The position numbers and the translations under genes are program-made. This document shows positions 6,085 to 32,735 of a stretch of 64,000 bases of DNA, piece by piece. A model generated the notes under the pieces. It did no database searches. It saw only the letters and a program-made list of their open reading frames with translations, and had not been told where the DNA came from. The stretch comes from Nitrospirales bacterium (GTDB lineage Bacteria > Nitrospirota > Nitrospiria > Nitrospirales > UBA8639): the NCBI GenBank assembly GCA_029261295.1, contig JAJDBP010000021.1, forward strand, positions 1-64,000, given 5' to 3'. How positions within the stretch are numbered: position 1 is the stretch's first letter; every line of letters starts with the position of its first letter.

Positions 6085-6402
6085 TTATCCTACGAGTTGT
6101 GCTGCAGGTTTTTGAGCAGATCGATGTACGTATTTCCGAGACTTGGTCCATCCACGTTTAGTTGAAGGGGTTGGATCCAAGGTTGGCTGAATAGTGCGAG
6201 GTGGGACAAATGAATCATCCAAGGCTAAGATGTCTTCGGCTTGTTGCAGTTCTTTAAGGCGGGTGTGATGTTGTTCTAATTCCCAAACCACGGCTTTGTT
6301 GAGTTGTGTAATCTTGTCTTGCAACTCTTTCATTGCCCGTTCATGATGTTGTACCTCGTTTTTTCGAGCCACACTAATGTACTGAACATCCACGTACGTC
6401 AT
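6085..6402 (-). CDS. Small coiled-coil protein of unknown function (105 aa)
   Basis: The start at 6402 has an AGGAGG-type box (GGAGGAGGAAAAATCCA before ATG), which supports a real gene. Residues about 15-60 form a charged heptad-like helix (NEVQHHERAMKELQDKITQL, then the ELEQHHTRLKELQQAEDIL stretch), followed by a Pro/Thr-rich linker and a basic tail (KRGWTKSRKYVHRSAQK). It has no signal peptide or known domain. It could be a nucleic-acid-associated or structural small protein; function not assigned. Confidence 0.6.
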   Translation of the reverse strand: MTYVDVQYISVARKNEVQHHERAMKELQDKITQLNKAVVWELEQHHTRLKELQQAEDILALDDSFVPPRTIQPTLDPTPSTKRGWTKSRKYVHRSAQKPAAQLVG

Positions 6403-6953: not shown

Positions 6954-7703
6954 ATGAAGAAACCGTACACATCTCAGAAATTTCGGAACCATCTATTAGA
7001 TCTTATGGAGCAGAAGGATCACTGGGCATGGGTTCAGTTCATCGGTCCATCCATTACCAAATCGAAGCTTAAAATTCATTATCAACAAGAATATGCGGTC
7101 TATGTTCGTGACTTTCCTGTGTTTCTTTCTCGCATTCATGGCAAAAACCCACCCTTGATAGTTCGGAAAATGTTAGCTGAGAATATTTTTGAGGAGGATA
7201 CGGGGCAATTATCTTTGGGGGTCTCTCATCCTGACCTCTTTTTGAAAATGATGCAAGGATTAGGGTTTCGACGAAAGAATTTTGAGCCTATATCGCTTTT
7301 TCCTGCTACTCGGCGTTATCGACAATGGTTAGATAAGATGTCCGATCATCCTGATTGGGTGGTTGGCGCGGCGGTGATGACAATATTTGTGGAAGGGAGT
7401 ATTCATGATCGTGATGAGCTGTCTCGCAAAGCTCGCCCAAAAACCACAAATCAAATCTCAACAAAAATTAAGAATCATCCCCTTGTGAAGTTTCATGGTG
7501 TTTCCCCGAATGCGTTGGATTTAATTCGGGCACATCAATTGGTCGAGGGCGGTCATCGACATGATGCCTATGACATGGTCGTCAATCATGCCAGAACACG
7601 AAGCCAACAAGATATGATTTTGAAAACCCTGCAGCGAACCCTGGTCCTGTGGCTCCGTTATCGAGATGGCTTGGCTCGTGCCTGTGAATTACATCAAAAA
7701 TAG
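6954..7703 (+). CDS. Heme-oxygenase-fold (HDO / TenA-PqqC-like) iron-containing oxidase candidate
   Basis: A 249-residue soluble all-helical protein that fits the 'iron-containing redox enzyme' branch of the TenA/PqqC/heme-oxygenase-like superfamily. Spaced Glu/Asp/His ligands characteristic of diiron HDO enzymes can be seen: QQEYAVYVRDFP in helix 1, LAENIFEEDTG with a following SHPDLF, EGSIHDRDELS, and FHGV...RAHQLVEGGHRHD. HDO enzymes use O2 to oxidise or cleave C-C and C-N bonds of small molecules; the substrate cannot be predicted. The radical SAM gene starts 137 bp downstream on the same strand, so a joint pathway is plausible. The N-terminal ATG is clear. Confidence 0.65.
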   Translation: MKKPYTSQKFRNHLLDLMEQKDHWAWVQFIGPSITKSKLKIHYQQEYAVYVRDFPVFLSRIHGKNPPLIVRKMLAENIFEEDTGQLSLGVSHPDLFLKMMQGLGFRRKNFEPISLFPATRRYRQWLDKMSDHPDWVVGAAVMTIFVEGSIHDRDELSRKARPKTTNQISTKIKNHPLVKFHGVSPNALDLIRAHQLVEGGHRHDAYDMVVNHARTRSQQDMILKTLQRTLVLWLRYRDGLARACELHQK

Positions 7704-7839
7704 TTATCAAGGTTGGCTGAAATGGATTAGCCCATTATCCTGGCAGGACTTATCATTCTTCCTCGCTTGTCGTTTTCCTCCCTCTTTACACGATTTCTCA
7801 ATCAGTAAAAACTAGCCTGAATGTCGTGGAGTATGGTAG

Positions 7840-10056
7840 GTGTTGCCTGCTATGGCTTTTCCTTCAGTCCTGTTGATTATCCCGCCCCTGACACAACTCA
7901 ATACCCCGTATCCATCGATCGCGTATTTGACTGGATTTTTGCGATCCCATGGATATCGTACGCATCAGGCTGATGTCGGCATTGAAATGGTGTTGGCTCT
8001 CTTTTCGAAAAATGGGCTGAATCGTGTCTTTGGTGAACTTCGTACCAAGTCTCTTGAAGAATTGCCGGGCGAGGCTCGCCAAATGCTCAGTCTTTCGCGA
8101 GCCTATGAGGAAACCATTGATCCCGTGATTCGATTTTTACAGGGCCAAGACGCCTCCTTAGCTTCCCGAATTTGTCAGGGAGGATTCCTTCCCCAAGGCC
8201 CACGATTTTCGATGAATGAGCTGGATGCGTTGCAAGGGAAGGATGCTTCCCGAAATCAAACCGACCAGGCAAAGCATATGGCAACCTTATATTTAGAGGA
8301 CTTGGCAGACTTGGTCCAAGCGACAATTTCGCCATATTTTGCGCTGAGTCGTTATGCCGAATCCATTGCGAGCCAGGCGACGTCTTATGACGGCATAGCT
8401 GAAGCCTTAGAGCAACCACTAAGCCTGACTGATAAATGGATGATAGAGGCGATGTGGGAACATGTGGAGCAATCGCAGCCTTCGGTGGTGGGATTTTCGG
8501 TTCCTTTCCCCGGAAATCTTTACGGAGCACTTCGGATGGGACAACATTTGCGTGCCCGAAGGCCGGAGATCAAAGTTGTTCTTGGAGGAGGGTATCCCAA
8601 TACGGAACTGCGACGAGTGCGAGATCCGCGTCTTTTTGAAGTGGTGGATTTTGTCACGCTTGATGATGGAGAGCGGCCTTTGCTCTGTCTATTGGAATAT
8701 CTACTAGACAAACGAAAAGAGAGTGATCTTTGCCGAACATTTTTCAGATCTGGGCAAATCGTGGTCTGGAAAAATGGAGCCAGCGAACCTGATCTCCCTC
8801 AAGCCGAAGTTGGGACGCCGACATATGATGGGTTGAATCTCGCCCAGTACATCTCAGTGTTGGATACCCTCAACCCTATGCATCGGCTTTGGTCCGATGG
8901 GCATTGGAACAAGTTGACGGTTGCGCATGGCTGCTACTGGAAACAATGTACGTTCTGTGATGTCGGATTGGATTATATTGGTCGATATGAGGTGTCGCCC
9001 GGTGATCTCTTAGTCGATCGCATTGAAATCATGATTGATGAAACGGGCAGGCGGGGGTTCCATTTTGTGGATGAGGCCGCCCCTCCTGTTGGATTGAAAC
9101 ATCTTGCCCTTTCCCTGTTGGAGCGAGGCGTAACCATTTCTTGGTGGGGAAACGTTCGATTTGAACCAGCATTCACGGTTGATTTGTGCCGATTACTTGC
9201 GGCATCAGGATGTATCGCCCTGAGCGCTGGATTAGAAGCTGCCTGTGATCGTTTGCTTGCTCTGGTCAAGAAAGGGATTACGGTCGATCAAACAGTGAGA
9301 GTGGTTCAGGCGTGTCAGGAAGCAGGGATTCTTGTTCATGCCTATCTGATGTATGGTTTGCCGAGTGAAACGATTAGAGAGACTCTGGAAAGTCTGGAGC
9401 GCGTGCGGCAACTATTTGCGAATGGTTTAATACAATCGGCTTTTTGGCATCGGTTTACGACAACAGCACATAGCCCTATTGGTTTGAATCCCGATGCCTT
9501 TGGACTGGAGCTTATTGGGCCTGAATTTCAAGGATTTGCGGAAAATGATCTTCTTCATTGCGATGCTCAGGTGTCAATTCCTGATTGGGTGGGAGAGGGC
9601 CTACGCTCAGCGCTCTGGCATTTTAAGGAAGGAGTGGAACTTCAACGCGATGTGCGCGAATGGTTTCCTGAACGGACGCCGAAACCAAAAGTCAAAAGAA
9701 CATGGGTGAAACAGATATTAGAGTCTGGATCCGAACCAGACCCGTCCCTGATGGAAAAAAAGTTTGTGTGGATTGGGGGACAACTAGATATTGATCGAGG
9801 GCACGGGCAACAATGCCGGATCATTTTGCCGAATCGAACCATGGATCAAGAAGTGAGATTGCAGCAGGGACAAGCAGAGTGGTTTCTCAATCTGATTACA
9901 CGTGCCACTCCAATTCATCAGCCAGGCGGCCACCGCTATCCGATCTTCAAAGAAGTTCGTGCGGGCTATCCGTTTGGAGGTCCCAAAGGGTTCGACAAAT
10001 GGTGGCAATCGGCATCAGCGCAAAAAGCCAAAACCGTCGGTCTCCTCTTAGTGTAA
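7840..10056 (+). CDS. B12-binding-domain-type radical SAM protein, CX4CX2C motif
   Basis: A 738-residue protein. Residues about 8-310 look like the Rossmann-type B12-binding half (SVLLIIPPLTQLNTPYPSIA; later VVGFSVPFPGNLYGALRMG and VVLGGGYPNTE). Residues about 355-560 form the radical SAM core, with Cys365, Cys370 and Cys373 in GCYWKQCTFCD: four residues, not the usual three, separate the first two cysteines. I do not see the DXHXXG cobalamin-ligand motif, so B12 may bind base-off or not at all. The C-terminal 170 residues are family-specific. The GTG at 7840 has a GGAG box eight bases upstream; an ATG at 7852 is an alternative. Reaction unknown; methyl transfer or rearrangement on a natural product is possible. 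Confidence 0.75.
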   Translation: MLPAMAFPSVLLIIPPLTQLNTPYPSIAYLTGFLRSHGYRTHQADVGIEMVLALFSKNGLNRVFGELRTKSLEELPGEARQMLSLSRAYEETIDPVIRFLQGQDASLASRICQGGFLPQGPRFSMNELDALQGKDASRNQTDQAKHMATLYLEDLADLVQATISPYFALSRYAESIASQATSYDGIAEALEQPLSLTDKWMIEAMWEHVEQSQPSVVGFSVPFPGNLYGALRMGQHLRARRPEIKVVLGGGYPNTELRRVRDPRLFEVVDFVTLDDGERPLLCLLEYLLDKRKESDLCRTFFRSGQIVVWKNGASEPDLPQAEVGTPTYDGLNLAQYISVLDTLNPMHRLWSDGHWNKLTVAHGCYWKQCTFCDVGLDYIGRYEVSPGDLLVDRIEIMIDETGRRGFHFVDEAAPPVGLKHLALSLLERGVTISWWGNVRFEPAFTVDLCRLLAASGCIALSAGLEAACDRLLALVKKGITVDQTVRVVQACQEAGILVHAYLMYGLPSETIRETLESLERVRQLFANGLIQSAFWHRFTTTAHSPIGLNPDAFGLELIGPEFQGFAENDLLHCDAQVSIPDWVGEGLRSALWHFKEGVELQRDVREWFPERTPKPKVKRTWVKQILESGSEPDPSLMEKKFVWIGGQLDIDRGHGQQCRIILPNRTMDQEVRLQQGQAEWFLNLITRATPIHQPGGHRYPIFKEVRAGYPFGGPKGFDKWWQSASAQKAKTVGLLLV

Positions 10057-10106
10057 TCAGAGCTTTTCTGGCTAGAAGGTGCCTGGCGAAAATCCTCTTC
10101 CTTATT

Positions 10107-10127
10107 TCCCTCCTTTGTAAGGAGGGA
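10107..10127. repeat. Short palindromic repeat element
   Basis: A perfect 9-bp inverted repeat (TCCCTCCTT, loop TGT, AAGGAGGGA) followed by a second AAAGGGAGG. This composition is typical of small dispersed palindromes between bacterial genes. No T-run follows. Confidence 0.55.
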
Positions 10128-10191
10128 CCAAAGGGAGGTAGAGTTTCCAGATAACCACATAGTTTCAATCTCCAACATATAAGGAGCTTAC

Positions 10192-10629
10192 ATGACCACA
10201 GCGCAGTATCCATGCAGTCCTAAAGAAAAAGTTAATGGGCTTTGTTTTCTCGGGCGGTTGATCGACAAAGTCAAAATGCGGAATGCAGGGCAGATTCAAG
10301 ATTACAATTTTCTAACGGCTGGGTTTGATAAATATTTGTTAGATAAATTGGAAATAAAAGGAGAAGATTTCGAGAAACGAGTACTTGAGGGAGGAACTAA
10401 ACAGGAGATTGCTGATTGGGTGAAGGCCAACGGCAAAGCACTGACCGATGAAGAAAAAGCAGAATGGAACAATATGGTGTTGACGTTCGGGCCAAAAGCC
10501 CCTATGGCGCAGCAGGCCTTCGATCGGAATAAGGCGGCATTGGCTGAAAAACGTGGCGTTTCATTAGAGGACCTTTCGCACATCACCACGTGGTTTGAAG
10601 CCATTGAGCACGACGAGGACCGGATGTGA
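10192..10629 (+). CDS. DUF5069 domain protein
   Basis: A 145-residue soluble protein whose core (LCFLGRLIDKVKMRNAGQ, then DYNFLTAGFDKYLLDKLEI, then TKQEIADWVKANGK) matches the DUF5069 family as I know it. The length is near the family's. No catalytic residues are established for this family. An AAGGAG box lies just before the ATG. It is 136 bp downstream of the radical SAM gene with a palindrome in between, so co-transcription is possible but unproven. Confidence 0.7.
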   Translation: MTTAQYPCSPKEKVNGLCFLGRLIDKVKMRNAGQIQDYNFLTAGFDKYLLDKLEIKGEDFEKRVLEGGTKQEIADWVKANGKALTDEEKAEWNNMVLTFGPKAPMAQQAFDRNKAALAEKRGVSLEDLSHITTWFEAIEHDEDRM

Positions 10630-10648: not shown

Positions 10649-11308
10649 TCAAAGCGGCTCAAGTGTTGTGAGCCAACTAGAAAAATGAAGACATTGTTCT
10701 CTTATTTTCTGTAATCCTATCCTCGATGCAATAGCGACTCCAAATGTAAGCTTTTGATAGGTAGGATAAATGTTCAGAATTCTTTGATGAGGTGCTGTAC
10801 TAGGTTGATCATTTATTTCCTCAGGTGTACTAAACTGCTGGCAAGTTTTTTTGAAATGTTGTTCTAAATGTTGCCCTCCAGGTAATCCTGCCGCCATATC
10901 TGCAGGAGAGGAGAAAAGGAGTCCTTCGAATTCATGGAGTGTTAGAAAAGGGATGAATTTCTCATTTCCAATATCCTGGCCTATGGCTTGTTCAACAAAT
11001 TCTGCGCGCTCAAAGCAAGTATCCCCTTCAGGGTTGGATCGTCCAGGAAAGCTTTTAGGTAGTCCGTAATAGTCAAACATAGTAGAAACTGCGCAAGCAC
11101 TTGTGTCTCTAAGTAGATTGCAGAGTTCCTTCCTGATTTTAGTGTATGGTCCAAGACCACCTCTGAAGTTTTGGCCATCTTTGACGATTTTTGTAGTGGA
11201 AAGAATTGGTTGGAGAAAAATTCCTTTTTCCTTTAAATATGGCAAGAGTAATTCTTTGGAAAACCTTTCTTCTGTCTGGCCTTCGACGAAAAGGAATAGT
11301 TTTTTCAC
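10649..11308 (-). CDS. DUF4276 family protein (TOPRIM-like), partner of the AAA ATPase
   Basis: A 219-residue protein starting with GTG at 11308, only two bases after the stop of the upstream ATPase gene. The N-terminus KLFLFVEGQTEERF places a conserved Glu (residue 9) after a hydrophobic strand, as in TOPRIM-type nucleases. A second acidic site lies in STMFDYYGLP (Asp79), and a conserved patch FLTLHEFEGLLFS follows. This is the DUF4276 pattern. In several families these proteins pair with SMC/ABC-like ATPases, and related pairs (for example AriA/AriB of PARIS, Gabija) defend against phage. A nuclease or effector role here is inference. The gene pair is AT-rich compared with its neighbours. 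Confidence 0.75.
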   Translation of the reverse strand: MKKLFLFVEGQTEERFSKELLLPYLKEKGIFLQPILSTTKIVKDGQNFRGGLGPYTKIRKELCNLLRDTSACAVSTMFDYYGLPKSFPGRSNPEGDTCFERAEFVEQAIGQDIGNEKFIPFLTLHEFEGLLFSSPADMAAGLPGGQHLEQHFKKTCQQFSTPEEINDQPSTAPHQRILNIYPTYQKLTFGVAIASRIGLQKIREQCLHFSSWLTTLEPL

Positions 11309-11310
11309 TT

Positions 11311-12384
11311 CTATGGTCTACCCCCAAGGAGATTTTTCTCCCAGAGGTCTCCCAACCCATAGTCATCAAGCCAATCTTCCATTTCGTTGGTTTGCAAGTG
11401 ACGAAATGTCGATTGACCATCTATTCGATCAACAACAAGAATATCTTCAAGTTGAAGCTGATTGACTAAAGGTACCGACTGAGTAGAAACGACTAGTTGG
11501 GTTTTAGCTGTTACACTTCGGAACAAAGATGCGAGGACCGTAATGGCAAAAGGATGAAGTCCCAATTCTGGTTCGTCAATTAAAATTGTTGATGGCGGGT
11601 TTGGTTGCAAGAGAAGTGTTGCCAAGCACATGAATCGGAGTGTTCCATCTGAAAGATGATAGGCCATAAAGGGATAGTCCGACCCCTTTTCTCTCCACTC
11701 AAGCCGGATTTTATTTTCATTGCTTGGATTTGGCCTTAAAATAAAATCGTCAAAAAATGGAGCAACTTGCCGCACTTGATCACGAATGGCTTCATAGTAA
11801 TTCTTGAATGATCCATATTGTAGACTATACAAAAATGCAGCTAAATTTGAGGCGTCCGAGCGAAGGTAAAAGTTATCATTGATATCCCCAATACTTTTTA
11901 CCTTTGCAGTATCACTTGTGTCATGAAAGTGGTAAACCTTCCAACTTTTGAGCGCGGAGAAAACATAGTCCGAGATTTTTGATAGGTTGGGGGATAATTT
12001 GCTTTCTTTGTGCCCTACGCCTAGTGAATCAGGATATCGAGTTACAGAGTCTCCCCAAAAGAGACTTTGCTCTTTTTCAAAAAAAAGAGAGCCGTCTGCT
12101 GTTGGAACCCACACACAATAATATCCATTATTGCCAAACCTTAATTCTACCTCTATTTTTCCTGTGATCTTTCCTCCAAAATGCAAGAAGGTTTCTGCTC
12201 CTCCGCTTTTTGCTATGGTATTCTGAAAGTTGCCCTCCACCATTTGATTTAACAGTTTAAAGGCACCAATGAAATTACTTTTACCTGCGCCATTTGGACC
12301 AATTAGTACGTTCAGAGGGCCTAATTCCAGTTCAAGATCGCGGATGGATTTAAAGCCTTTGAGAATGATTTTTTTGAGCTTCAT
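11311..12384 (-). CDS. AAA/ABC-type ATPase (AAA15/AAA_21-like), putative defence ATPase
   Basis: A 357-residue ATPase. Walker A is GPNGAGKS (residues 29-36), directly after FKSIRDLELELGPLNVLIG, the typical start of RecF/SMC-like 'AAA_21' proteins. A signature-like LSDGTLRFM and Walker B ILIDEPELGLHP follow, then a VVSTQS switch region. It lacks the long coiled coil of SMC proteins. It forms a two-gene operon with the DUF4276 gene just downstream. Together they resemble an ATPase sensor plus nuclease effector cassette, a common form of anti-phage system; this role is inferred from architecture only. Confidence 0.8.
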   Translation of the reverse strand: MKLKKIILKGFKSIRDLELELGPLNVLIGPNGAGKSNFIGAFKLLNQMVEGNFQNTIAKSGGAETFLHFGGKITGKIEVELRFGNNGYYCVWVPTADGSLFFEKEQSLFWGDSVTRYPDSLGVGHKESKLSPNLSKISDYVFSALKSWKVYHFHDTSDTAKVKSIGDINDNFYLRSDASNLAAFLYSLQYGSFKNYYEAIRDQVRQVAPFFDDFILRPNPSNENKIRLEWREKGSDYPFMAYHLSDGTLRFMCLATLLLQPNPPSTILIDEPELGLHPFAITVLASLFRSVTAKTQLVVSTQSVPLVNQLQLEDILVVDRIDGQSTFRHLQTNEMEDWLDDYGLGDLWEKNLLGGRP

Positions 12385-20413: not shown

Positions 20414-20590
20414 GTGATGCGATTCCAGCGTTAAATTCCAATATCTCTCTGCTCCTTCATTGTTTCCTTATCCCTTTTAATCTAATGTAGTCTATTCTTC
20501 AATCCTTTTCTCATTTCATATTATGTCATTATAATCTTTATGGTGGAAATATTTTCTGCGGTTGGGCAGCCTTATGAAACCAAACAAGCA

Positions 20591-22132
20591 ATGAAACGTA
20601 CGTTGGCGATATTAGGAACCGGTTCAGACGTTGGGAAAAGTCTGATCGCTGCAGGGTTGTGCCGATTGATCTATCGTGCAGGTTTTAAGGTGGCCCCCTT
20701 TAAAGCACAAAATATGTCGTTGAATTCCTTTGTGACGCCTGAAGGGGGAGAGATGGGGCGTGCCCAGGTATTGCAAGCCCAGGCTTGTAGCCTTGCCCCT
20801 AGTGTCTTGATGAATCCAATTCTCCTTAAGCCAGAAGCTGATTGCAGATCCCAAGTCATTGTGCAAGGCAAGGTGTGGGAACGGCATGAAGCGAGCGAAT
20901 ATTTTGCTCAAAAATCCGTCCTTTGGAAATTTGTACAGTCAAGCTATGAAGAACTAGTGAAGATCTATGAAGTGATTGTGATCGAAGGCGCTGGGAGTGC
21001 GGCGGAAATGAATCTTCGAGATCGGGATATCGTCAATTGGCCGGTTGTAGAAATGGCTGACGCATCGGTGATTCTCGTGGCTGACATTGATCGGGGTGGC
21101 GTATTTGCACAGGTCATTGGAACGATGGATCTTTTGGCCACGAACGAACGGCGACGGGTGATTGGGATCGTGATTAATAAGTTTCGGGGTGACCTCACTT
21201 TATTTGATGATGGGATCAAAATTATTGAAGAACGCACCGGGGTGCCAGTGCTGGGTGTGGTGCCTTATCTGCGGAATTTGGAATTAGATCAGGAAGATAG
21301 CGTGGACATTGAGCGATTTCGTATGACCCCTTTTGGAGCAAAGACCGTAAATGTGGCGGTCGTGTTGTTGCCACACATGAGCAACTTTACAGATTTCAAT
21401 CAACTTGTCGCTGAGACGGATGTGGCACTTCGTTATGTCGGATCCCCCCAAGAACTTCATGGAGCGGATGTCGTCATTCTGCCAGGGAGTAAAACCACGA
21501 TTGAAGATTTGAACTATCTTCGGAAAGTAGGCTTCGAGCAAACGCTCTTGGCCCATGTGCAACGGGGTGGGGAAATATTGGGGATCTGTGGCGGGTTCCA
21601 GATGTTAGGAAATACCATTGCAGACCCACACCATGTTGAGACGGGCGGTTCGTCGAAAGGCTTAGGCTTGCTTGACGTTGAGACCGAATTACTTCCACAT
21701 AAGAAAACTGTGCAAGTTTGTGCCCAGTCTCTAGCCGCGTTTGCGGATCATAAATGTCTTGTTGAAGGCTACGAAATTCATATGGGACGTACAACTCGTG
21801 AGAAGACGGTATCACCCTGTTTTCAAATTCTCTCGGATGAGGCTCAACCTTCTTCAGGGCAAAGTACGCAAAGAGAAGATGGGGCGATGCGAACGGATGG
21901 GTTGGTGTGGGGAACCTACATTCATGGGGTATTCGATCAACCAGATTTTCGTCGCGAGTGGCTGAATCGCGTGCGTATTCGAAAAAATCTTCAAACACTT
22001 GACCTGAAAACATCTCAAGCCGTTTCCGAAAGATTAGTCCATGCTCTCGATCGCTGGGCCGATCATGTCAGTACGTACCTGAATATGAAGCCTATCTTGG
22101 CCTCTATCCGAAGATTGCCAAAGGGATCCTAA
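20591..22132 (+). CDS. cobQ: Cobyric acid synthase (glutamine-hydrolysing)
   Basis: A 513-residue enzyme that amidates the b, d, e and g side chains of adenosylcobyrinic acid a,c-diamide, giving adenosylcobyric acid. The N-terminal ATPase half has the P-loop GTGSDVGKS and [20 protein letters not shown]. The C-terminal class I amidotransferase half has the catalytic Cys in GICGGFQMLGNT and a conserved HMGRT and YIHGVFD. Length matches the family. I start at Met 20591, matching the start of the truncated copy at 18409; the frame is open from 20540. It lies 0.8 kb before the first B12 riboswitch and is not preceded by one itself. Confidence 0.93.
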   Translation: MKRTLAILGTGSDVGKSLIAAGLCRLIYRAGFKVAPFKAQNMSLNSFVTPEGGEMGRAQVLQAQACSLAPSVLMNPILLKPEADCRSQVIVQGKVWERHEASEYFAQKSVLWKFVQSSYEELVKIYEVIVIEGAGSAAEMNLRDRDIVNWPVVEMADASVILVADIDRGGVFAQVIGTMDLLATNERRRVIGIVINKFRGDLTLFDDGIKIIEERTGVPVLGVVPYLRNLELDQEDSVDIERFRMTPFGAKTVNVAVVLLPHMSNFTDFNQLVAETDVALRYVGSPQELHGADVVILPGSKTTIEDLNYLRKVGFEQTLLAHVQRGGEILGICGGFQMLGNTIADPHHVETGGSSKGLGLLDVETELLPHKKTVQVCAQSLAAFADHKCLVEGYEIHMGRTTREKTVSPCFQILSDEAQPSSGQSTQREDGAMRTDGLVWGTYIHGVFDQPDFRREWLNRVRIRKNLQTLDLKTSQAVSERLVHALDRWADHVSTYLNMKPILASIRRLPKGS

Positions 22133-22315
22133 TAAATTTTTGTTAAATAGTTGAAAGTGAAGACTTCGTGAGCCGTTGCTCTGGTCTTTGTTTCCCCAGA
22201 AAAACCGTTTGTGCAAGTGTAATACGACAAATTATTTGCGGGAAAGAAAAAGCATTTTGCCATACCATTTGAAGTTCTCTTGCGTATCATCTGTCAATTT
22301 CCAAGGAGGTTACTT

Positions 22316-22849
22316 ATGAAGCCAGTATTGGCGGTCTTCCTTTCTTTTGTAGTGTTGTCTGCCTGTGGAGGAGGCAGTGCTCGCTTAGGGACGCCTGTCA
22401 CACTCCCTCCTGGTCCAATCACGATTCAAAATACTGTACCGTTTATCCCAGGAAATCACATCGCCAATAATATCAAACAGGAATGTGATCTTAATTCACA
22501 ACTTTCTGTCTTTATTAAGGAATATGCAACTGAGAACGCAGTAGAGCTGCGAGGGGTTGACGCTCTCGATACGAGCGAGCCTGGGAATGTCCTAAAAATT
22601 GAAATTACGCATTCAGTAAGTCAGGGCAATGCCTTCATTGGACACCGAAAATATACAGCTGTCCGAGGGGAACTATATGATAATGGAAAACTCTTGGCTT
22701 CTTTTACGGGTGCCAGGAATTCTGGAGGAGGGGCCTTTGCAGGATTTAAAGGTTCTTGCGCTGTCTTGGGACGAACGGTGAAGGCACTAGGAAAAGATAT
22801 CGCGACATGGTTGAAGCAGCCGTCTAACAATGCCCATTTAGGTGATTAG
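22316..22849 (+). CDS. DUF4410-like lipoprotein
   Basis: A 177-residue lipoprotein: short signal with lipobox LSAC (Cys about residue 17), then AARL-like linker and a DUF4410-type fold (VLKIEITHSVSQGNAFIGHR, ending in a GKDIATWLKQ helix). An AAGGAGG box precedes the ATG at 22316; an in-frame ATG-like start further up is not used. DUF4410 proteins are outer-membrane or periplasmic lipoproteins with no settled role. It sits between cobQ and the B12 transport genes, but nothing ties it to cobamides. Confidence 0.7.
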   Translation: MKPVLAVFLSFVVLSACGGGSARLGTPVTLPPGPITIQNTVPFIPGNHIANNIKQECDLNSQLSVFIKEYATENAVELRGVDALDTSEPGNVLKIEITHSVSQGNAFIGHRKYTAVRGELYDNGKLLASFTGARNSGGGAFAGFKGSCAVLGRTVKALGKDIATWLKQPSNNAHLGD

Positions 22850-22921
22850 TATCAGTATGGAAAATGCGTTCTTTGTGATTAATTGTCCTAAGTTGACAAT
22901 AAGGGGGTCAGCTTCCTATTG

Positions 22922-23110
22922 TCACCTCCAACATATTTACGGAACGGATGAAGGGAAGCGGGTGTGAATCCCGCGTGGTCCCGCCGCTGTAACTGGGGAC
23001 GCCCCCCGCAATGCCACTGTTTCTCTTGAACGAATAGGAATGGGAAGGCGTGGGTGGTCGGCCAGCACTTTAGATGCTGAGCTCCAGAAGCCAGAATACC
23101 TCGTTTGTTC
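22922..23110 (+). promoter_or_regulatory. Cobalamin riboswitch 1 (upstream of btuF)
   Basis: The conserved B12-aptamer core is plain: GGGAAGCGGGTGTGAATCCC, then CGCGTGGTCCCGCCGCTGTAA, and the closing element AGAAGCCAGAATACC near 23085-23100. A perfect 10-bp terminator follows (23168-23196), so the switch most likely works by ligand-induced transcription termination, lowering btuFCD expression when cobalamin is plentiful. Confidence 0.93.
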
Positions 23111-23167
23111 CAAGACCAATGTTCCCTCGTGGGCTGGGGAAATGGTGAGGATGAAGAAGCGGGTGCA

Positions 23168-23207
23168 ATCCTCAAGGTTGATGAAGCCTTGAGGATTTTT
23201 TTATTTT
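23168..23207 (+). terminator. Riboswitch-1 expression platform (intrinsic terminator)
   Basis: ATCCTCAAGG (23168-23177) pairs perfectly with CCTTGAGGAT (23187-23196), followed by TTTTTTTATTTT. It stands between the B12 aptamer and btuF. Confidence 0.9.
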
Positions 23208-24315
23208 GGAATCTATTTCAGGTAGGGACGGAACAGGAAGTCGGCAAGTTAAGTGTCTGCACCCTCACCCTAGCCCTCTCCCTGCAAGGGAGAGGAGATT
23301 TAATTTCAAACTAACCGTTTGGGTCATTTTCTTTGGTATAGTAATCTGCTTTTTTCCGTCTTCTTATCCTCATGCACAGAGTTATGCTGGAGAGAGTGAT
23401 CATATGAAGCGTCGGCAGCAGGGCATTTTGACGGGGATGCCATTCATGGCCAATATTGCGCCCAGAACGTTCGTCGATGATCTGGATCGGAAGCTGTATC
23501 TCGCAAAACCACCTAAACGGATCGTGTCGTTAGCACCCAGCATTACGGAAATCCTTTTTGCGATTGGCGCAGAGAATGAAATTGTTGGCGTTACCGACTT
23601 TTGTAATTATCCTCCGGCTGCCTTAGAAAAACCGAAGGTTGGCTATTCACAACCCAATTTGGAGGCGCTGGTGGCGCTTGAACCGCAACTCGTTTTGGCT
23701 CCCCCCTCGTTTCTTCGTGCCGATTTACTGGCCAAGTTGGAACAGCTCAAGATTCCCACGTTTGTGCTTGAATCAAAAACAGTGGAAGGTATTTTCGGAC
23801 ATATTCAGTTGTTAGGAAGAATGGTTGGCCGAGCGTCTGAGGCCAATGCTTTTACGGCAGTGATGCGTAAGCAGGTCGCCAACCTCACGAAAAAAGTTGA
23901 AGGTCGGCCTCGTCCCACCATGCTCTATGTCCTCAGTTCGGATCCTTTGATTACGGTCGGTCCTGGAAGTTTCATTCATCATTTGATTGAACTGGCTGGT
24001 GGGCGGAACGCGGCTGAGCGGGCCAATGCCCCCTACCCACGACTAACGATGGAAGAGGTGTTGACGCAAAATGCCGACATCTTGCTCTTTCCAATCGGAG
24101 AGTTTGAAGGGGTTCCACAAGCGGAACAAGATCGCTGGAAACGCTGGAATACCTTACGGGCGGTGCAAACGGGAAAATTATTTCAGGTCCAAGCTGATTT
24201 ACTCAATCGTCCGGGGCCTCGTGTGATTAAAGGATTACGGCATTTGGTCACATTGCTCCATCCAGATGTCTCACTAGATGATCCTGTCGAGGCCCCCAGT
24301 CCAGAAATTCGCTAA
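23206..24315 (+). CDS. btuF: Cobalamin ABC transporter substrate-binding protein
   Basis: A periplasmic vitamin B12-binding protein of the PF01497 fold: PKRIVSLAPSITEILFAIGA, then VGYSQPNLEALVALEPQLVL, and a conserved DPLITVGPGSFIHHLIELAGG. It hands cobalamin to BtuCD. The signal peptide is FKLTVWVIFFGIVICFFPSS, but no normal start codon precedes it: the frame begins with TTG at 23206, within the riboswitch terminator tail, and runs through a palindromic repeat. The next ATG is 23404, after the signal peptide. The start therefore remains open. It is the first gene of the riboswitch-1 operon btuF-btuC-btuD. Confidence 0.88.
   Translation: MESISGRDGTGSRQVKCLHPHPSPLPARERRFNFKLTVWVIFFGIVICFFPSSYPHAQSYAGESDHMKRRQQGILTGMPFMANIAPRTFVDDLDRKLYLAKPPKRIVSLAPSITEILFAIGAENEIVGVTDFCNYPPAALEKPKVGYSQPNLEALVALEPQLVLAPPSFLRADLLAKLEQLKIPTFVLESKTVEGIFGHIQLLGRMVGRASEANAFTAVMRKQVANLTKKVEGRPRPTMLYVLSSDPLITVGPGSFIHHLIELAGGRNAAERANAPYPRLTMEEVLTQNADILLFPIGEFEGVPQAEQDRWKRWNTLRAVQTGKLFQVQADLLNRPGPRVIKGLRHLVTLLHPDVSLDDPVEAPSPEIR
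23275..23295. repeat. Palindromic repeat inside the 5' end of the btuF frame
   Basis: CCTCTCCCT, loop GCA, AGGGAGAGG: a 9-bp perfect hairpin preceded by CACCCTCACCCTAGC. This is the look of a common dispersed intergenic palindrome. Here it lies inside the only open frame upstream of the BtuF signal peptide and translates as PHPSPLPARER. Confidence 0.65.
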
Positions 24316-24365
24316 AGGACCAATTCTGTCATGAATCTAAATCATGTAGTTCGGGAAAATAATTT

Positions 24366-25520
24366 GTGAAGCCAACTCTTGATGGTCCATCGCTGAGCCC
24401 GCTTCCGACGGTGCTTCCGTTGGAGCATTCAATATCAACGAAATCCCCACTCAATGTGGCCTCATCGTTGAGGGGAACATTGACACTGAGTCGTTGGTGG
24501 CTATGGGTGAGTGCAGCCTGTGTTCTGACCGTGTTGGTCTTTGTGGGATGTTTAGGACTTGGCACACAAGCTATTACCTATTCAACCATTATTGCCGTGA
24601 TTATGGAGGCAGTGGCTGGTTCGTCTATCGAGCAGGGTCTGAATGATCCGACTTCCGTCATCCTTCTTCACGTCAGGATGCCTCGTGTGCTTCTGGCGTT
24701 TTTTGTCGGTGGTAGTTTGGCGATGGTGGGGGTGGCCCTTCAGGCTTTGTTGCGCAACCCTTTAGCGGATCCATTCGTGATTGGTATTTCCAGTGGGGCC
24801 GCGCTTGGAGCTGCGATTGCCTTACTGTTTGGTCTTGGAATATCGGTGGGAAGTCTGTCGGCTCTACCTATTTGTGCCTTTGCGGGCGCGTTGATCTCGC
24901 TCACCATCATGTATCGAATTTCTTCGGCACAATTTGGTTTTTCAGTGTATACCCTGTTGCTCGCCGGAGTGGTACTGAATGCCATTTTTTCGGCTTTCAT
25001 CATGTTTCTTACGAGTATTGCTGATCCGAATCGCGCGTTTGGGATGTATGCCTGGTTGATGGGGACGTTGACCGGTCCGGATTGGCCAACACTGGGAATA
25101 TTGGTGTTGTATCTGGGAGCAGGTCTGGTCATTCTGGGAATGCAGGCGCAGTCGCTGAATTTGCTGACACTTGGGGAGGAAACGGCGCGTTCGTTAGGTG
25201 TCGAGGTGGAACGAGTCAAAAAAATGGTGTTCCTTGCTGCCGCACTTCTTACCGGAGCGGTGGTCAGTTTTAGTGGGATTATCGGATTCGTTGGGTTGAT
25301 CATCCCCCATGCCGTGCGATTAGTGGTCTCGGCCGATCATCGTCTTTTACTGCCTGTGGCCGGTTTAGTAGGAGGGATGTTTTTGATGTTGGCCGATACG
25401 GTGGCTCGTACGGCTTTGAGTCCGAGTGAGTTTCCCGTTGGTGTCATTACCGCATTGGTTGGCGGCCCCATATTTTTATGGTTATTGACGACCCGACAAA
25501 CGCAATTGGGTATGAAGTAA
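24366..25520 (+). CDS. btuC: Cobalamin ABC transporter permease (FecCD family)
   Basis: A 384-residue polytopic membrane protein of the BtuC/FecCD family, with about ten hydrophobic segments. Diagnostic stretches are ILLHVRMPRVLLAFFVGGSL, GVALQALLRNPLADPFVIG (including the permease motif) and FSGIIGFVGLIIPHAVRLVV. It begins with GTG at 24366 and carries about 45 extra N-terminal residues before the first helix. It lies between btuF and btuD and is expected to form the BtuC2D2 complex. Confidence 0.9.
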   Translation: MKPTLDGPSLSPLPTVLPLEHSISTKSPLNVASSLRGTLTLSRWWLWVSAACVLTVLVFVGCLGLGTQAITYSTIIAVIMEAVAGSSIEQGLNDPTSVILLHVRMPRVLLAFFVGGSLAMVGVALQALLRNPLADPFVIGISSGAALGAAIALLFGLGISVGSLSALPICAFAGALISLTIMYRISSAQFGFSVYTLLLAGVVLNAIFSAFIMFLTSIADPNRAFGMYAWLMGTLTGPDWPTLGILVLYLGAGLVILGMQAQSLNLLTLGEETARSLGVEVERVKKMVFLAAALLTGAVVSFSGIIGFVGLIIPHAVRLVVSADHRLLLPVAGLVGGMFLMLADTVARTALSPSEFPVGVITALVGGPIFLWLLTTRQTQLGMK

Positions 25521-25525
25521 TCTAA

Positions 25526-26353
25526 ATGATGAACGAGCACATGATTCCCAACGTAGCCTATTCGCTGGACCATATAAGCTTTTCCTATTCAAAAGGAAAG
25601 AACGCGGCCTCTGAGGCTGTCTTGAAAGAGTTGTCCTGTTTGATTCTTTCTGGTCGGGTGTTAGGCATTCTTGGCCCAAATGGGTCTGGAAAAAGCACTT
25701 TACTAAAATTGTTAGCCAGAGTGTTTCGGCCACAGCAAGGCACCATTGAACTATTGGGCGAGCCGTTATCTGGCCTGTCCCAGTTAGACGTGGCCAAGCG
25801 AGTGGCACTGGTGCCCCAAGAAACGCTGCAAGTGTTTCCCTTTACCATCGCTGAGATGGTGTTGATGGGGCGGTCTCCTCATCATCAGGGTTGGGGAGGC
25901 TGGCATTGGGAAGATTCCCAGGATTGGGCGGTGGCCCAGAACGCCATGGAAGAGCTGGATGTGGCGCATCTCGGCCATCGACTTGTGACCGAAGTGTCGG
26001 GTGGAGAACGCCAACGAGCGGTGATAGCTCGTGCGTTAGTGCAGGAGCCGAAGATCCTATTGTTGGATGAACCGACGGCCTTTTTAGATCTCCACCATCA
26101 GTTAGATATTGCTCGGATTATCAAACGATTAAATCGAGAACGAGGATTGACGGTGGTGTTGGTCTCGCACGATTTGAATTTGGCCAGCCAATATTGTGAT
26201 CAAGTCTTGCTTTTGAATCATGGGCGTCTTGCCGCGATGGGGTCGCCTCAATCCGTGATAAAACCAAACGTTATTGAAGAGGTGTATGGATGTTCGGTGC
26301 TTGTTGATCGGCATCCGCAATCCGGGTTGCCGCGAGTGTCTTTGCCGGTTTAG
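25526..26353 (+). CDS. btuD: Cobalamin ABC transporter ATP-binding protein
   Basis: A 275-residue ABC ATPase with Walker A GPNGSGKS, the signature VSGGERQRAVIARAL, Walker B ILLLDEPTAFLDL and the switch His in VLVSHDLN. It powers BtuC. It starts five bases after the btuC stop. Family neighbours include siderophore transporters, but the two B12 riboswitches and the B12 gene neighbourhood make cobalamin the likely substrate. Confidence 0.9.
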   Translation: MMNEHMIPNVAYSLDHISFSYSKGKNAASEAVLKELSCLILSGRVLGILGPNGSGKSTLLKLLARVFRPQQGTIELLGEPLSGLSQLDVAKRVALVPQETLQVFPFTIAEMVLMGRSPHHQGWGGWHWEDSQDWAVAQNAMEELDVAHLGHRLVTEVSGGERQRAVIARALVQEPKILLLDEPTAFLDLHHQLDIARIIKRLNRERGLTVVLVSHDLNLASQYCDQVLLLNHGRLAAMGSPQSVIKPNVIEEVYGCSVLVDRHPQSGLPRVSLPV

Positions 26354-26404
26354 TTGTCAGTGGAGGTTTACCGTTTATTCATCATTTTACAAAGGAGGAG
26401 GGTT

Positions 26405-26572
26405 ACTTAAGGAAAATTGAATGGTTGTGACGGGGAAGCTGGTGTAAATCCAGCACGGTGCCGCCACTGTAAGCGGGGAGTAATTCTGCAATCGGCCATT
26501 GTGAGCTGTGAGCTCATGAGAAGGCGCAGAAGAACGATAATCCGCAAGTCAGGAAACCCAACAACTGTTTCT
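26405..26572 (+). promoter_or_regulatory. Cobalamin riboswitch 2 (upstream of btuB)
   Basis: A second B12 aptamer core: GACGGGGAAGCTGGTGTAAA, then TCCAGCACGGTGCCGCCACT, GTAAGCGGGGA, and the closing element CCGCAAGTCAGGAAACCC. It lies directly before btuB. No terminator with T-run follows; see the ribosome-binding-site hairpin at 26583-26599. Confidence 0.93.
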
Positions 26573-26582
26573 TCCATAAAAC

Positions 26583-26602
26583 CCCTTCGAGCTAAAGGGA
26601 GG
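26583..26602 (+). promoter_or_regulatory. Ribosome-binding-site hairpin of btuB (riboswitch-2 output)
   Basis: CCCTT (26583-26587) can pair with AAGGG (26595-26599), the left half of the AAAGGGAGG Shine-Dalgarno box of btuB. Such a sequestering stem would let the upstream B12 aptamer control translation. The short stem makes this an inference. Confidence 0.5.
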
Positions 26603-26605
26603 TGG

Positions 26606-28624
26606 ATGATGTCCACGAACGTATTATTTCGATTTGTTTTTCAGTGTTGTTTTTTTGTTTGTATTTCCCTCGCCGTACATGCAGGTTTTCCTTATTGGGC
26701 TCTCGCTCTTGATGATCTGAACTCCGAGCCTGTCCACACATTTGATCCTGTGGTGGTGACCGCCACCAAAACCCCAGTTCCCATCAGTCATGTCACGAGT
26801 GCAGTAGAAGTCTTTACGGCGAAGGAAATAGCGCTACGCAAAGTTCGTACGGTCACCGACCTTCTTCGTCTTAGCCAAGGAACAATTGTATCGTCCAATG
26901 GCGGTCCTGGGACGCAGGCTACGGTGAGAATCAGAGGCGCGGCTGCTGATCAAACATTGGTACTCATTGATGGAGCAATTGTGAATAGTGGAACCGTGGG
27001 ACAATTTAATTTTGGGCCTCTAGCAACGGATAATATTGCCAGTATTGAAATCCTTCGAGGAGCTCAAAGTATGATGTGGGGTTCTGATGCCATGGGTGGT
27101 GTTGTGAATATCCGAACCAAGCGTGGAGAGGGCCCCTTTCGTGTTGGAGCATTTTTTGAATATGGCTCTTTTAATACGCTGCGAGAAGGTCTCACTTTCT
27201 CTGGTCAGAAGGACTTCATTGATTTGTCAGCGGCTCTTTCTCGGTGGGATTCATCAGGATTTTCGGCGATTAATTACCGAAGAGGGGCATCGGAGCGTGA
27301 TTCGTTCCGAAATTGGCAAGCCTCATCACGTTTGGGGATTTCCCTTCCTCGGGAGGGACGTTTCGATGTAAATCTGCGATGGTGGAATAGTGATACTGCC
27401 ATTGATAGTTCTTTCGGCCCCTCAGACGTCGTTGATGCCAACAACGATAGTAAGGGCCTTGTACTTACTGGTATTTGGGAGCAACCCATTACTGACTGGT
27501 ATTCTCATGTCTTGACCCTTGCACGGGCCAAAGAGGCTAGCCCCTTTGATCCGGGAGTTTCGCAACGAAATCTTTCTTCAGGTGTGGTGAGTGTTCCCTT
27601 TGGAGGGCCGAATGAGACAAAGGTGCTTTCTAATCGGATTGAGACTCAACATAATTTCCAACTCATGAAAGAGGTGGCCCTCAACATGGGCTATCAATTT
27701 CGAGAGCAGCAAGGGAAGAATGATACGGGTTTATCAACCAAGATTACGTCGTCTCACTCGGGGTTTGCTCAATTTCAGGTGAATCTATTTGAGAGACTTT
27801 TTGCCACGGCGGGTGTTCGTCAGGATAGCTATAACACCTTTGGTGATGCGACCACGTATCGAGTGACCGGGGGGTATCTGTTAAAAGAGACCAATACGAA
27901 AATTCGATCGAGTTGGGCGACGGGCTTTCGTGCGCCGACTATTAATGAATTATTTTTCCCAAATTTTGGTAACCCAAACCTGGATCCTGAAAAAAGTAAA
28001 AGTTTTGATGTCGCGGTTGATCAATTTCTTTTCTCCAAGCGACTCAAGTTGAGTGTGGGATATTTTTATAATCGGTATAAAGATTTGATAGAAACGATTC
28101 AAAATCTAGGGGTGTGTGGAGCTGGTCCGTTTGGCACTAATTTCTGCCCGGTCAATGTATCCAAAGCTAAGACAAAGGGGTGGGAAAGCTCGGCATCTCT
28201 GGTTTTGGCTCAAGACCTGCCTTTTATGAAATTGCTAGATATTCTTGCTCAATATACCTACACCTCGACTCGTAACCTTGATACCAATCGACGGCTGGCG
28301 CGGGTACCGGTGGATCAGGTGAGTATCAGAGTGCATTATCAACCCATTGCTCCTCTGAGCCTGGTGCTTGATTTTCGATGGGTGGGTTCGCAGTTTAATC
28401 GTCCAAGTACTGCACAAGATGACTCCCAACGTGTACCTTCCTTTAAGGTGGTGAATCTCGTGGCGAGCTATGATGTGATGAAGCAAGTAGAGGTCTATAC
28501 CCGTATTGATAATCTTTTTAATGAAGAATATGAAGAGATTTTGTTCTTTGGGACGCCCGTACGCTCAATTTTTGGAGGTATCCGAGTGCAATTTGATCTT
28601 CCCATTGGTGATACTAATTCATGA
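26606..28624 (+). CDS. btuB: TonB-dependent vitamin B12 receptor
   Basis: A 672-residue outer-membrane receptor. The start is one of two adjacent ATG codons (26606 or 26609) just after GGGAGG; the frame continues upstream only through the riboswitch. Signal peptide about residues 4-35; TonB-box-like FDPVVVTATKTPVPIS; plug domain with VRIRGAAADQTLVLIDGA and SIEILRGAQSMMWGSDAMGG; then a beta-barrel ending in an aromatic strand (RSIFGGIRVQF). It imports cobalamin (or other corrinoids) into the periplasm for BtuF. The stop overlaps the start of cobB (ATGA), tying transport to salvage in one transcript. Confidence 0.9.
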   Translation: MMSTNVLFRFVFQCCFFVCISLAVHAGFPYWALALDDLNSEPVHTFDPVVVTATKTPVPISHVTSAVEVFTAKEIALRKVRTVTDLLRLSQGTIVSSNGGPGTQATVRIRGAAADQTLVLIDGAIVNSGTVGQFNFGPLATDNIASIEILRGAQSMMWGSDAMGGVVNIRTKRGEGPFRVGAFFEYGSFNTLREGLTFSGQKDFIDLSAALSRWDSSGFSAINYRRGASERDSFRNWQASSRLGISLPREGRFDVNLRWWNSDTAIDSSFGPSDVVDANNDSKGLVLTGIWEQPITDWYSHVLTLARAKEASPFDPGVSQRNLSSGVVSVPFGGPNETKVLSNRIETQHNFQLMKEVALNMGYQFREQQGKNDTGLSTKITSSHSGFAQFQVNLFERLFATAGVRQDSYNTFGDATTYRVTGGYLLKETNTKIRSSWATGFRAPTINELFFPNFGNPNLDPEKSKSFDVAVDQFLFSKRLKLSVGYFYNRYKDLIETIQNLGVCGAGPFGTNFCPVNVSKAKTKGWESSASLVLAQDLPFMKLLDILAQYTYTSTRNLDTNRRLARVPVDQVSIRVHYQPIAPLSLVLDFRWVGSQFNRPSTAQDDSQRVPSFKVVNLVASYDVMKQVEVYTRIDNLFNEEYEEILFFGTPVRSIFGGIRVQFDLPIGDTNS

Positions 28625-30030
28625 AACTTCCTCGACTTTTGATTGCAGGAACACATAGTGGGGTAGGGAAGACAACTGTGACGTTGGCGCTTCTGGCTGG
28701 CTTTCGAAGCCAGGGGCGCCGAGTTCAACCTTTTAAAGTCGGTCCGGACTTTATTGATCCTGGGCATCATCAGATGGCGAGTGGTTGTGAATCGCGCAAT
28801 CTCGATGGATGGATGTTGGGTGCATTTTTAAATCGAGACACGTTTCAAGCAGTTGCTAGGGAGGCAGATCTTTCCATTATTGAAGGAATGATGGGTTTGT
28901 TTGATGGGAGTTCTCCAGTAAATGAAATAGGGAGTAGTGCCGAAATGGCGAAGCAATTGAATGCTCCCGTCCTAATCGTTGTTGATGGAAGTGCTATGGC
29001 CAGATCAGCTGCCGCCATGGTATTTGGCTATGCTCAATTTGACCCTCAGGTAAAGATTGCAGGGGTCGTGTTTAACCGAATTAAGAGCGAGGGACATTAT
29101 CAATTGTTGAAAGAAGCGGTAGAAAAGGAAACTCAGGTGCCAGTTGTGGGGTATATTCGACCAGAGCCAGAATTGACGATCCCCGATCGACATTTAGGCT
29201 TGAGGACGGCTCTGGAGGGACAAGGTCTGGAATTCTATTCGAACCTAGTTCAGTCAACAATCAATACCATTGATTTTGAGCGAATCGAACAATTAGCTCA
29301 TGCATCTCCTGAATGGGATGCTCCGGGATTTTTAGCGCCACAACGGTCAGCCGAATCGGGAAACAAACCGATCAAGATCGCTGTGGCCCATGACCCAGCC
29401 TTCAGTTTTTATTATCCAGAGAATATTGCTCTACTTGAACAGGCTGGAGGTACTGTGGGCCGTTTCTCTCCCATGAAGGATCCGATATTACCTGTTGACG
29501 TGGATTTTTTGTATTTGGGGGGCGGCTATCCAGAAGTCTATGCTTCTGTGTTGGAACAGAATTCTTCCATGCGGAACAGCATTGCCGAATTTGTTCGGCA
29601 GGGTGGAGTCGTCTATGCAGAATGTGGTGGGTTATTGTATTTATCAAGGTCTTTGAAAGATTTTGATAAGGAGGTGTTTGACATGGTTGGCGTTCTTCCC
29701 TGTAAGGCTGTGATGAGTCGAACCCAGATGACTCTAGGCTATCGGGAAATGACGTTAACCCAATCTGGCATCTTAGGGGAAAAAGGTAGTCGAATCCGTG
29801 GACATGAATTTCACTATTCCCATCTGGAAAATCTGGGAAATGTGGATTATGTCGGGAAGATTTTTGATGCACGAGGAAAAGACTGCGGTGGGGATGGAAT
29901 TATGGTCAACAATGTTGTTGCGCTGTATACTCACCTACATTTTTCCAGCCACCCCCAGGTTCCGGTCGATTTGATACAAGCCGCACGAGACCAACGTGAG
30001 AAAAGGACAACAAATTATGTCAGACACTGA
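28621..30030 (+). CDS. cobB: Cobyrinate a,c-diamide synthase
   Basis: A 469-residue amidotransferase that amidates the a and c acetate side chains of (hydrogeno)cobyrinic acid. The N-terminal ATPase domain shows GTHSGVGKTTVTLALLAGF and KVGPDFIDPGHH. The C-terminal glutaminase half has GGGYPEVYA and the catalytic Cys in YAECGGLLYL. Length is normal for CobB/CbiA. It is translationally coupled to btuB by a four-base overlap and overlaps cobO by 14 bp. In a locus without ring-synthesis genes its substrate may come from a distant cluster or from salvaged incomplete corrinoids. Confidence 0.92.
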   Translation: MKLPRLLIAGTHSGVGKTTVTLALLAGFRSQGRRVQPFKVGPDFIDPGHHQMASGCESRNLDGWMLGAFLNRDTFQAVAREADLSIIEGMMGLFDGSSPVNEIGSSAEMAKQLNAPVLIVVDGSAMARSAAAMVFGYAQFDPQVKIAGVVFNRIKSEGHYQLLKEAVEKETQVPVVGYIRPEPELTIPDRHLGLRTALEGQGLEFYSNLVQSTINTIDFERIEQLAHASPEWDAPGFLAPQRSAESGNKPIKIAVAHDPAFSFYYPENIALLEQAGGTVGRFSPMKDPILPVDVDFLYLGGGYPEVYASVLEQNSSMRNSIAEFVRQGGVVYAECGGLLYLSRSLKDFDKEVFDMVGVLPCKAVMSRTQMTLGYREMTLTQSGILGEKGSRIRGHEFHYSHLENLGNVDYVGKIFDARGKDCGGDGIMVNNVVALYTHLHFSSHPQVPVDLIQAARDQREKRTTNYVRH

Positions 30031-30613
30031 TCATCAAGCTCGTATGGCCAGATTGAAATCCTCTGTGGATCGACGAATTGCGGCTGCTCAAGATGAAAAA
30101 GGACTCCTGGTTATTCATACTGGTGCCGGAAAAGGCAAAACGACGGCGGCGCTGGGAATGGCTATTAGATCTTTAGGCCATGGGATGAAGGTGGCTGTCG
30201 TGCAGTTTATAAAAGGTGCCATTGATACGGCTGAGGAGCGCATACTGAAGAGCTTTGGCGATCAAGTGGTCTTCCTTCGCATGGGAGAAGGATACACGTG
30301 GGAAACACAAAATAAAGAACGAGATAAGTCTGTCGCTCAAGAAGCGTGGGCAGAAGTGGAAAAATTTCTTCAGGATCCCACCTTCGGCATGGTGGTATTG
30401 GATGAATTGAATATTGCGATACATCATGAGTATGTCTCGCTCGATCAAGTCCTTAAAGCAGTGGCTCAACGTCCTCCTATGCTCCATGTGGTGATCACCG
30501 GTCGAGGGGCGAAATCGGAGTTAATTGAAGTGGCGGACTTAGTGTCGGAAATGAAAATGATCAAGCATCCCTTTAGAAATGGGATCAAGGCACAAAAGGG
30601 AGTCGAGTTTTGA
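30017..30613 (+). CDS. cobO: Cob(I)yrinic acid a,c-diamide adenosyltransferase (CobO/BtuR type)
   Basis: A 198-residue ATP:corrinoid adenosyltransferase of the CobA/CobO/BtuR family. Walker A GAGKGKTTAALG follows LLVIHT, then KVAVVQFIKG, VLDELNIAIHHEYV and the C-terminal LVSEMKMIKHPF typical of the family. I start at the ATG at 30017, which an AAGGA box precedes, rather than 29996. It overlaps cobB. A second, unrelated adenosyltransferase (PduO type) lies 1.5 kb downstream. Confidence 0.9.
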   Translation: MSDTDHQARMARLKSSVDRRIAAAQDEKGLLVIHTGAGKGKTTAALGMAIRSLGHGMKVAVVQFIKGAIDTAEERILKSFGDQVVFLRMGEGYTWETQNKERDKSVAQEAWAEVEKFLQDPTFGMVVLDELNIAIHHEYVSLDQVLKAVAQRPPMLHVVITGRGAKSELIEVADLVSEMKMIKHPFRNGIKAQKGVEF

Positions 30614-31365: not shown

Positions 31366-31370
31366 GTCCC

Positions 31371-32042: not shown

Positions 32043-32135
32043 TTGTGGTTTTTCCTGCCTATACGAGGGAGGTGATTTCGAAGTGGCACGATCGACCCAA
32101 AGCAGATAATATTTTTTCTTCTGGAGACAAATGCC

Positions 32136-32735
32136 ATGCGAATTTCAAAAGTCTATACACGCACTGGTGATGCTGGCAAAACCCGGTTAGCTGGTGGGCA
32201 AGAGGTTTGGAAAGATTCTGTGCGGGTAGAAGCTTACGGCACTGTGGACGAATTGAATTCCACGCTTGGATTCATTCGTGCGTCGAATGAACAATCGGGA
32301 ACGAAGGCTGAATCCTCTAAATTTATTGAGAATGCCCTGAAGTGGACGCAAAATAAGTTGTTTGATTTGGGTGGCATTCTGGCGACGGCCCCTGGAGAGT
32401 CGTTTCCGAATATGCCCACCGTGTCCTCAGAGGACGTTGTCCATTTGGAACAATTGATTGATGAATGCCAAAAAGATCTTGAGCCTTTGAAGGAATTTAT
32501 TTTGCCTGGTGGTGGACAGATTTCGGCGTTGTTACATGTTGCCCGTACCATTTGTCGGCGTGCTGAACGTTTGTGTGTGACCTTGTCGAAGGAAGAAGCG
32601 GTCTCAACGGAATTGGTGAAATTTCTCAATCGGCTGAGTGATGCGTTGTTTGTGTTCGCGAGATGGGTGGCGAAACAACAAGGAGAGGCTGAATTGTTGT
32701 GGGAACGCGTGCCAGCTCAATCGTCCAAGGACTAA
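32136..32735 (+). CDS. pduO: ATP:cob(I)alamin adenosyltransferase, PduO type
   Basis: A 199-residue PduO/MMAB-family enzyme: KVYTRTGDAGKTRLAGGQEV at the start (the ATP-binding N-terminus), AYGTVDELNSTLGF, then LHVARTICRRAERLCV and LNRLSDALFVFARW. It is unrelated in fold to CobO but does the same cobalt adenosylation. Its co-occurrence with CobO suggests different corrinoid substrates or roles, for example cobalamin recycling. It follows cbiZ after a 93-bp gap. Confidence 0.9.
   Translation: MRISKVYTRTGDAGKTRLAGGQEVWKDSVRVEAYGTVDELNSTLGFIRASNEQSGTKAESSKFIENALKWTQNKLFDLGGILATAPGESFPNMPTVSSEDVVHLEQLIDECQKDLEPLKEFILPGGGQISALLHVARTICRRAERLCVTLSKEEAVSTELVKFLNRLSDALFVFARWVAKQQGEAELLWERVPAQSSKD

Follow-up and report, generated by a model that had tools for sequence, protein, structure and literature searches.

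The present analysis suggests that two of three neighbouring genes in a 64,000-nucleotide stretch of a Nitrospirales genome (the whole stretch is referred to here as the window) encode separately inherited enzymes of this Nitrospirota class that lie side by side by chance. One, HDO1, would be an O2-activating enzyme that is not a p-aminobenzoate synthase, and the other is a predicted B12-type radical SAM enzyme. We consider this reading as a whole probable. The data on which it rests are the reading frames, the predicted fold of HDO1, its ligand residues, the cysteine motif of the radical SAM protein, and the distribution and neighbourhoods of the genes. Orthologues of the open reading frames at 6954-10629 occur in dozens of genomes at ~55-82% identity which, together with the length of the frames, excludes chance reading frames.

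An earlier note, made from the letters of this DNA, had placed all three genes at the correct coordinates and had rightly called the third DUF5069 (Table 1); a literature search for DUF5069 turned up no paper in the collection consulted. Both of its enzyme assignments stand. Its proposal that HDO1 and the radical SAM gene form a conserved pair does not, and what survives of that proposal is a looser co-occurrence of the two genes across genomes.

Table 1. Positions of the genes discussed (window coordinates unless a locus is named)
Feature	Position	Strand	Length	Description
cl4	6085-6402	-	105 aa	no family assigned; divergent from HDO1
HDO1	6954-7703	+	249 aa	putative haem-oxygenase-like dimetal oxidase; W26 at CADD Tyr27 column
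Radical SAM gene	7840-10056	+	738 aa	putative cobalamin-binding-type; CX4CX2C at C365/C370/C373; TsrM/OxsB-like fold
DUF5069 gene	10192-10629	+	145 aa	Pfam match 2.4e-33
HDO2	L061:15759-16568 (G000 contig 10, near base 45,800)			second HDO copy, 43% identical to HDO1

HDO1 and its metal ligands

HDO1 matches PF14518 in Pfam (E 5.7e-16) and falls slightly under the cut-off of the TENA/PqqC model. Its AlphaFold model, built on a 20-sequence alignment, has a mean pLDDT of 90.2 and a predicted seven-helix haem-oxygenase-like fold that matches CADD, PqqC, SSO2700, UndA, BesC, and FlcD in the PDB. CADD is the top match (E 1.8e-7, TM 0.83 on target), and the nearest solved proteins in a profile search are 4-aminobenzoate synthases. 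By alignment, the ligand positions are E81, H92, E147, H194, E198, and H201, a full 3H/3C set, which is the spaced Glu/Asp/His pattern seen by the earlier note. All six residues are present in 92 of 92 ligand-intact relatives first sampled and in 105 once outgroups were added, figures that are tallies and no independent test, “ligand-intact” being defined by the six residues themselves. The fold match suggests that these ligands cluster in space. Modelling thus places HDO1 as a predicted haem-oxygenase-fold dimetal oxidase of the HDO superfamily, and its metals are probably a pair of irons.

In the mechanism that we envisage, three His and three Glu would hold two metals that react with O2, and a peroxo-type species formed from O2 would oxidize a small organic substrate in the pocket; the metal identity, the pocket residues, and the chemistry are the parts of the explanation that we infer. 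The proteins of this class constitute an uncharacterized HDO subfamily, that is, new members of a known superfamily in which functions have been assigned to about a dozen of more than 10,000 enzymes (PMC13108848). An HDO was found in 156 of the 186 class genomes of at least 90% completeness and occurs almost throughout Nitrospira and its relatives, a group with many nitrite and comammox oxidizers. Given so wide a distribution, HDO1 seems likelier to carry out a core oxidation than a step of natural-product synthesis confined to particular strains.

Gene neighbourhoods and co-occurrence

The inference of an undescribed pathway from a conserved HDO–radical SAM pair was tempting, but the neighbourhood counts show it to be wrong. 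From named genomes a scan retrieved 192 HDO relatives, and the best 80 of these, nearly all from Nitrospirota and including Nitrospira moscoviensis, were used for loci. The radical SAM gene lies near the HDO gene in 7 of these best 80 loci, all of them close kin of the window in one clade. When the 60 nearest genomes are compared, 8 of the 21 that belong to the window's genus have both genes no more than 5 kb apart, and none of those outside it does. The class-wide set of 186 genomes (completeness at least 90%) contains 126 that carry both genes, and the coordinates listed put them within the 5 kb suggested by the earlier note in three: G000, which is the window's genome, G007, and G009. Homologues of the two genes are thus very rarely neighbours, the outcome that the earlier note had named as refuting its proposal. 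The adjacency therefore arose in one clade of the window's genus. In another genome, G028, HDO1 and the radical SAM gene are separated by a block of genes, and loss or gain of such a block may explain the adjacency in the window. From sequence resemblance we take the block to consist of transglutaminase and alpha-E-like genes.

The usual neighbours of HDO in Nitrospira are instead MetH, a small divergent gene, and an FGE-like gene, typically in the order MetH-cl8-cl14-cl13-HDO-FGE, and among the best 80 of the 192 relatives cl13 accompanies 58 loci, FGE 53, and MetH 43, contig ends permitting. In the same 80 loci cl4 lies upstream of HDO in 12, every one in the window's lineage. Other orders have other genes beside HDO than Nitrospira does, presumably, from sequence resemblance, a HAD phosphatase or fructose-bisphosphatase-like gene. 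In families f10 and f41 HDO is followed by a same-strand HAD phosphatase gene resembling YrfG and in f6 by a fructose-bisphosphatase-like gene instead (loci for HDO with phosphatase-type downstream genes in other orders are L184:3137-4527, L185, L189, and L182-L183). The FGE-like gene was considered as a fixed HDO partner and rejected, as it adjoins HDO in Nitrospira but neither in the window's lineage nor in other orders. Immediately after the radical SAM gene comes DUF5069, both in the window's genus and in some genomes outside it. Beyond DUF5069, on the minus strand of the window at 10649-12384, is a tandem of a DUF4276 protein and an AAA_21 ATPase that resembles putative anti-phage ATPase pairs.

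Across the 186 genomes, a ligand-intact HDO and the radical SAM gene are found together in 124, HDO only in 11, the radical SAM gene only in 16, and neither in 35, giving an odds ratio of 24.7 that is uncorrected for kinship and genome size. For these counts the residues of doubtful HDOs were examined one by one, the others were called intact from their identity to HDO1, and ten genomes absent from the HDO table were counted as having neither gene, as the totals require. By genera, each assigned by majority and by hand, the corresponding figures are 21, 8, 4, and 12 of 45 (odds ratio 7.9, p=0.004, not tree-corrected). Genomes thus tend either to have both a working HDO and the radical SAM gene or to lack both, a pattern that is suggestive, and co-occurrence in excess of expectation gives a hint of some shared role.

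Such a role could be a single pathway for both enzymes, in which, say, the radical SAM protein methylates a compound that the HDO then oxidizes; its genes would be mostly unlinked and have become adjacent here. Besides the two tables, this would fit the separate case of G040, in which a ligand-deficient HDO arose independently and the radical SAM gene is missing, and at least 20 Nitrospira-type genomes in which coordinates place both genes on one contig, ~14-70 kb apart. However, 11 genomes retain an intact HDO without the radical SAM gene, and the latter occurs without HDO in six genomes of another class and in several of the order. Moreover, many of the genomes that have neither gene are small, so that genome reduction could account for much of an association that is not tree-corrected, and gene order varies between clades, the radical SAM gene coming first in Nitrospira and HDO first in the window's lineage. 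We therefore regard a common pathway as rather unlikely and favour two separately inherited enzymes.

Ligand loss in HDO2 and comparison with CADD

The window's genome has a second HDO copy, HDO2, which occupies the MetH/cl13 position and in which E147, H194, E198, and H201 are all substituted. The 20 ligand-deficient HDO2 proteins sampled form one clade (support 100/100), whereas the ligand-deficient protein of G040 (L174) groups with ligand-intact proteins of family f2 (support 100/100); from these two placements, the metal ligands of HDO appear to have been lost independently at least twice. FlcD offers a partial parallel, being a mononuclear HDO whose last core helix has lost two of its ligands (PMC13108848). 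Many HDO2 proteins likewise lack both His of the last helix and keep E81, H92, E147, and E198, but HDO2 is a separate lineage, and HDO1, unlike FlcD, keeps all six ligands. In HDO2 of the window's genus E147 and E198 have also gone, which leaves the protein without a plausible metal site. Many other HDO2 residues remain invariant, which indicates that the protein is still under selection. HDO2 therefore probably has a role without a dimetal site, as judged from its sequence, and may represent a family of pseudoenzymes spread through a single family of the order. This retention of invariant residues in a fold that seems to act independently of metal could be extended to the whole group, so that HDO1 and HDO2 would serve chiefly in binding or regulation and the intact HDO, too, would be no redox enzyme, but the full 3H/3C set is retained in 105 proteins from several orders, and we consider this very improbable.

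The notable detail of the ligand losses is that W26 and the metal site are lost jointly: W26 is present in 104 of 105 ligand-intact and in 0 of 21 ligand-deficient proteins, with 20 of these 21 coming from one clade, so that independent support for the joint loss amounts to two events. N77 and P93 are likewise altered in both losses, and the intact relatives of L174 retain all three residues. The sole sampled ligand-intact HDO with another residue at position 26 (L101:4007-4753) has Gly there, through sequencing error or as a real exception. The intact and deficient sister families thus amount to a set of natural mutants and suggest W26, N77, and P93 as pocket candidates, and the pocket wall of HDO1 may include them. 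That W26 is itself oxidized by the dimetal site, or that a radical is drawn through it, we hold to be very improbable; it is more likely that W26 simply forms part of the lining of the substrate pocket.

W26 also distinguishes HDO1 from the proteins that it most resembles. CADD and NePabS share with HDO1 the fold and a 3H/3C set at matching positions, but the identity of CADD to HDO1 in the structural alignment is only 18%. Alignment with 9pj4 shows that CADD-type enzymes have an Asp in the last helix where HDO1 has E198. By the CADD ligand numbering, this Asp is a metal ligand. CADD and NePabS cleave a tyrosine of their own (Tyr27 and Tyr25) and take the nitrogen from Lys152 and Lys159, respectively (PMC11965152). 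The column of the sacrificed Tyr27 is occupied by Trp26 in HDO1 and, with the one exception above, in the intact HDO proteins. No lysine after E147 is invariant among the 105 intact proteins as a counterpart to the donor Lys152, the loop alignment to CADD being uncertain. K163, which at first stood at 91%, was rejected as a stand-in: present in 88 of 105 ligand-intact proteins, it also occurs in 16 of 21 ligand-deficient and 0 of 9 outgroup proteins. The CADD family model TIGR04305 gives HDO1 51.4 bits, far under its cut-off of 200.

In the window's genome there is a TrpE operon (L170); at another locus (L171) lies a second chorismate-binding enzyme gene, which scores best to NCBIfam TrpE models, under their cut-offs, and is favoured as PabB because a class IV aminotransferase gene adjoins it. 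Judged by position and sequence resemblance, the same arrangement is present in G039, which lacks HDO, and most of 60 genomes have two TrpE/PabB homologues, HDO-less ones included. For G028, which is 91% complete, no TrpE/PabB homologue is reported. A literature search on Nitrospira with p-aminobenzoate and folate turned up no paper in the collection consulted. That HDO1 makes p-aminobenzoate as CADD does, for folate and, in Nitrospira, in connection with the nearby MetH, would fit CADD as the closest solved protein in both sequence and fold, the presence of MetH near HDO in many Nitrospira, and the CADD-type PabS of the ammonia oxidizer Nitrosomonas (PMC11965152), but the Tyr and Lys columns, the family score, and the pab genes led us to reject this, and judged by its residues HDO1 is not such an enzyme, the converse being highly improbable.

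The radical SAM protein

The 738-residue protein matches the radical SAM core PF04055 (2.2e-12) and, under the curated cut-off of 32.1 bits, the B12-binding domain PF02310 (6.6e-7, 29.6 bits). The closest folds to its model are TsrM, OxsB, MgmA, and AprD4, and among curated NCBIfam models TIGR03975, PhpK, and ApyD come closest, each scoring well under its cut-off (for TIGR03975, a RiPP maturation radical SAM family, 90.2 bits against 281.85). The B12-type N-terminal half proposed by the earlier note gains support from these matches, and DXHXXG is, as it had said, found nowhere in the 738 residues. The model has a mean pLDDT of 79, falling below 50 in the cluster loop (residues 367-384). C365, C370, and C373 form the sole CX4CX2C motif of the protein and are invariant in its orthologues. 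The motif had been thought unusual; it is also invariant in two radical SAM paralogues near MetH and has been described for GenD1, which is said to resemble GenK (PMC4340712), and its novelty was therefore discarded. These paralogues are tandem B12-type genes of 655 and 631 aa beside MetH (L061:4669-8548 and L062:14803-18691), with similar copies in many genomes of the order.

The protein is thus predicted to be a B12-type radical SAM enzyme. It shares a radical SAM core and a putative B12-type N-terminal domain with TsrM, OxsB, PhpK, TIGR03975, and GenD1/GenK, and CX4CX2C with the last, but differs from all of them in scoring beneath every curated cut-off and in its C-terminal ~200 residues beyond the core, which have no family match. 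A cursory look beside the gene recognized no RiPP precursor or biosynthetic cluster. In addition to a [4Fe-4S] cluster, the protein very probably binds cobalamin, as its sequence and model indicate; it would cleave SAM to a 5′-deoxyadenosyl radical and most likely methylate an unactivated atom. Its assignment as a methyltransferase, the most likely one, is drawn by analogy from family and fold resemblance under every NCBIfam cut-off. The window also carries a cobalamin block at 20540-36401, comprising CobQ, a BtuC-like permease, an ABC ATPase, a BtuB-like receptor, CobB, BluB, CobT, and CbiB, with two cobalamin riboswitches (22917-23121 and 26383-26579); given these genes for B12 uptake and late cobalamin synthesis, B12 should be available.
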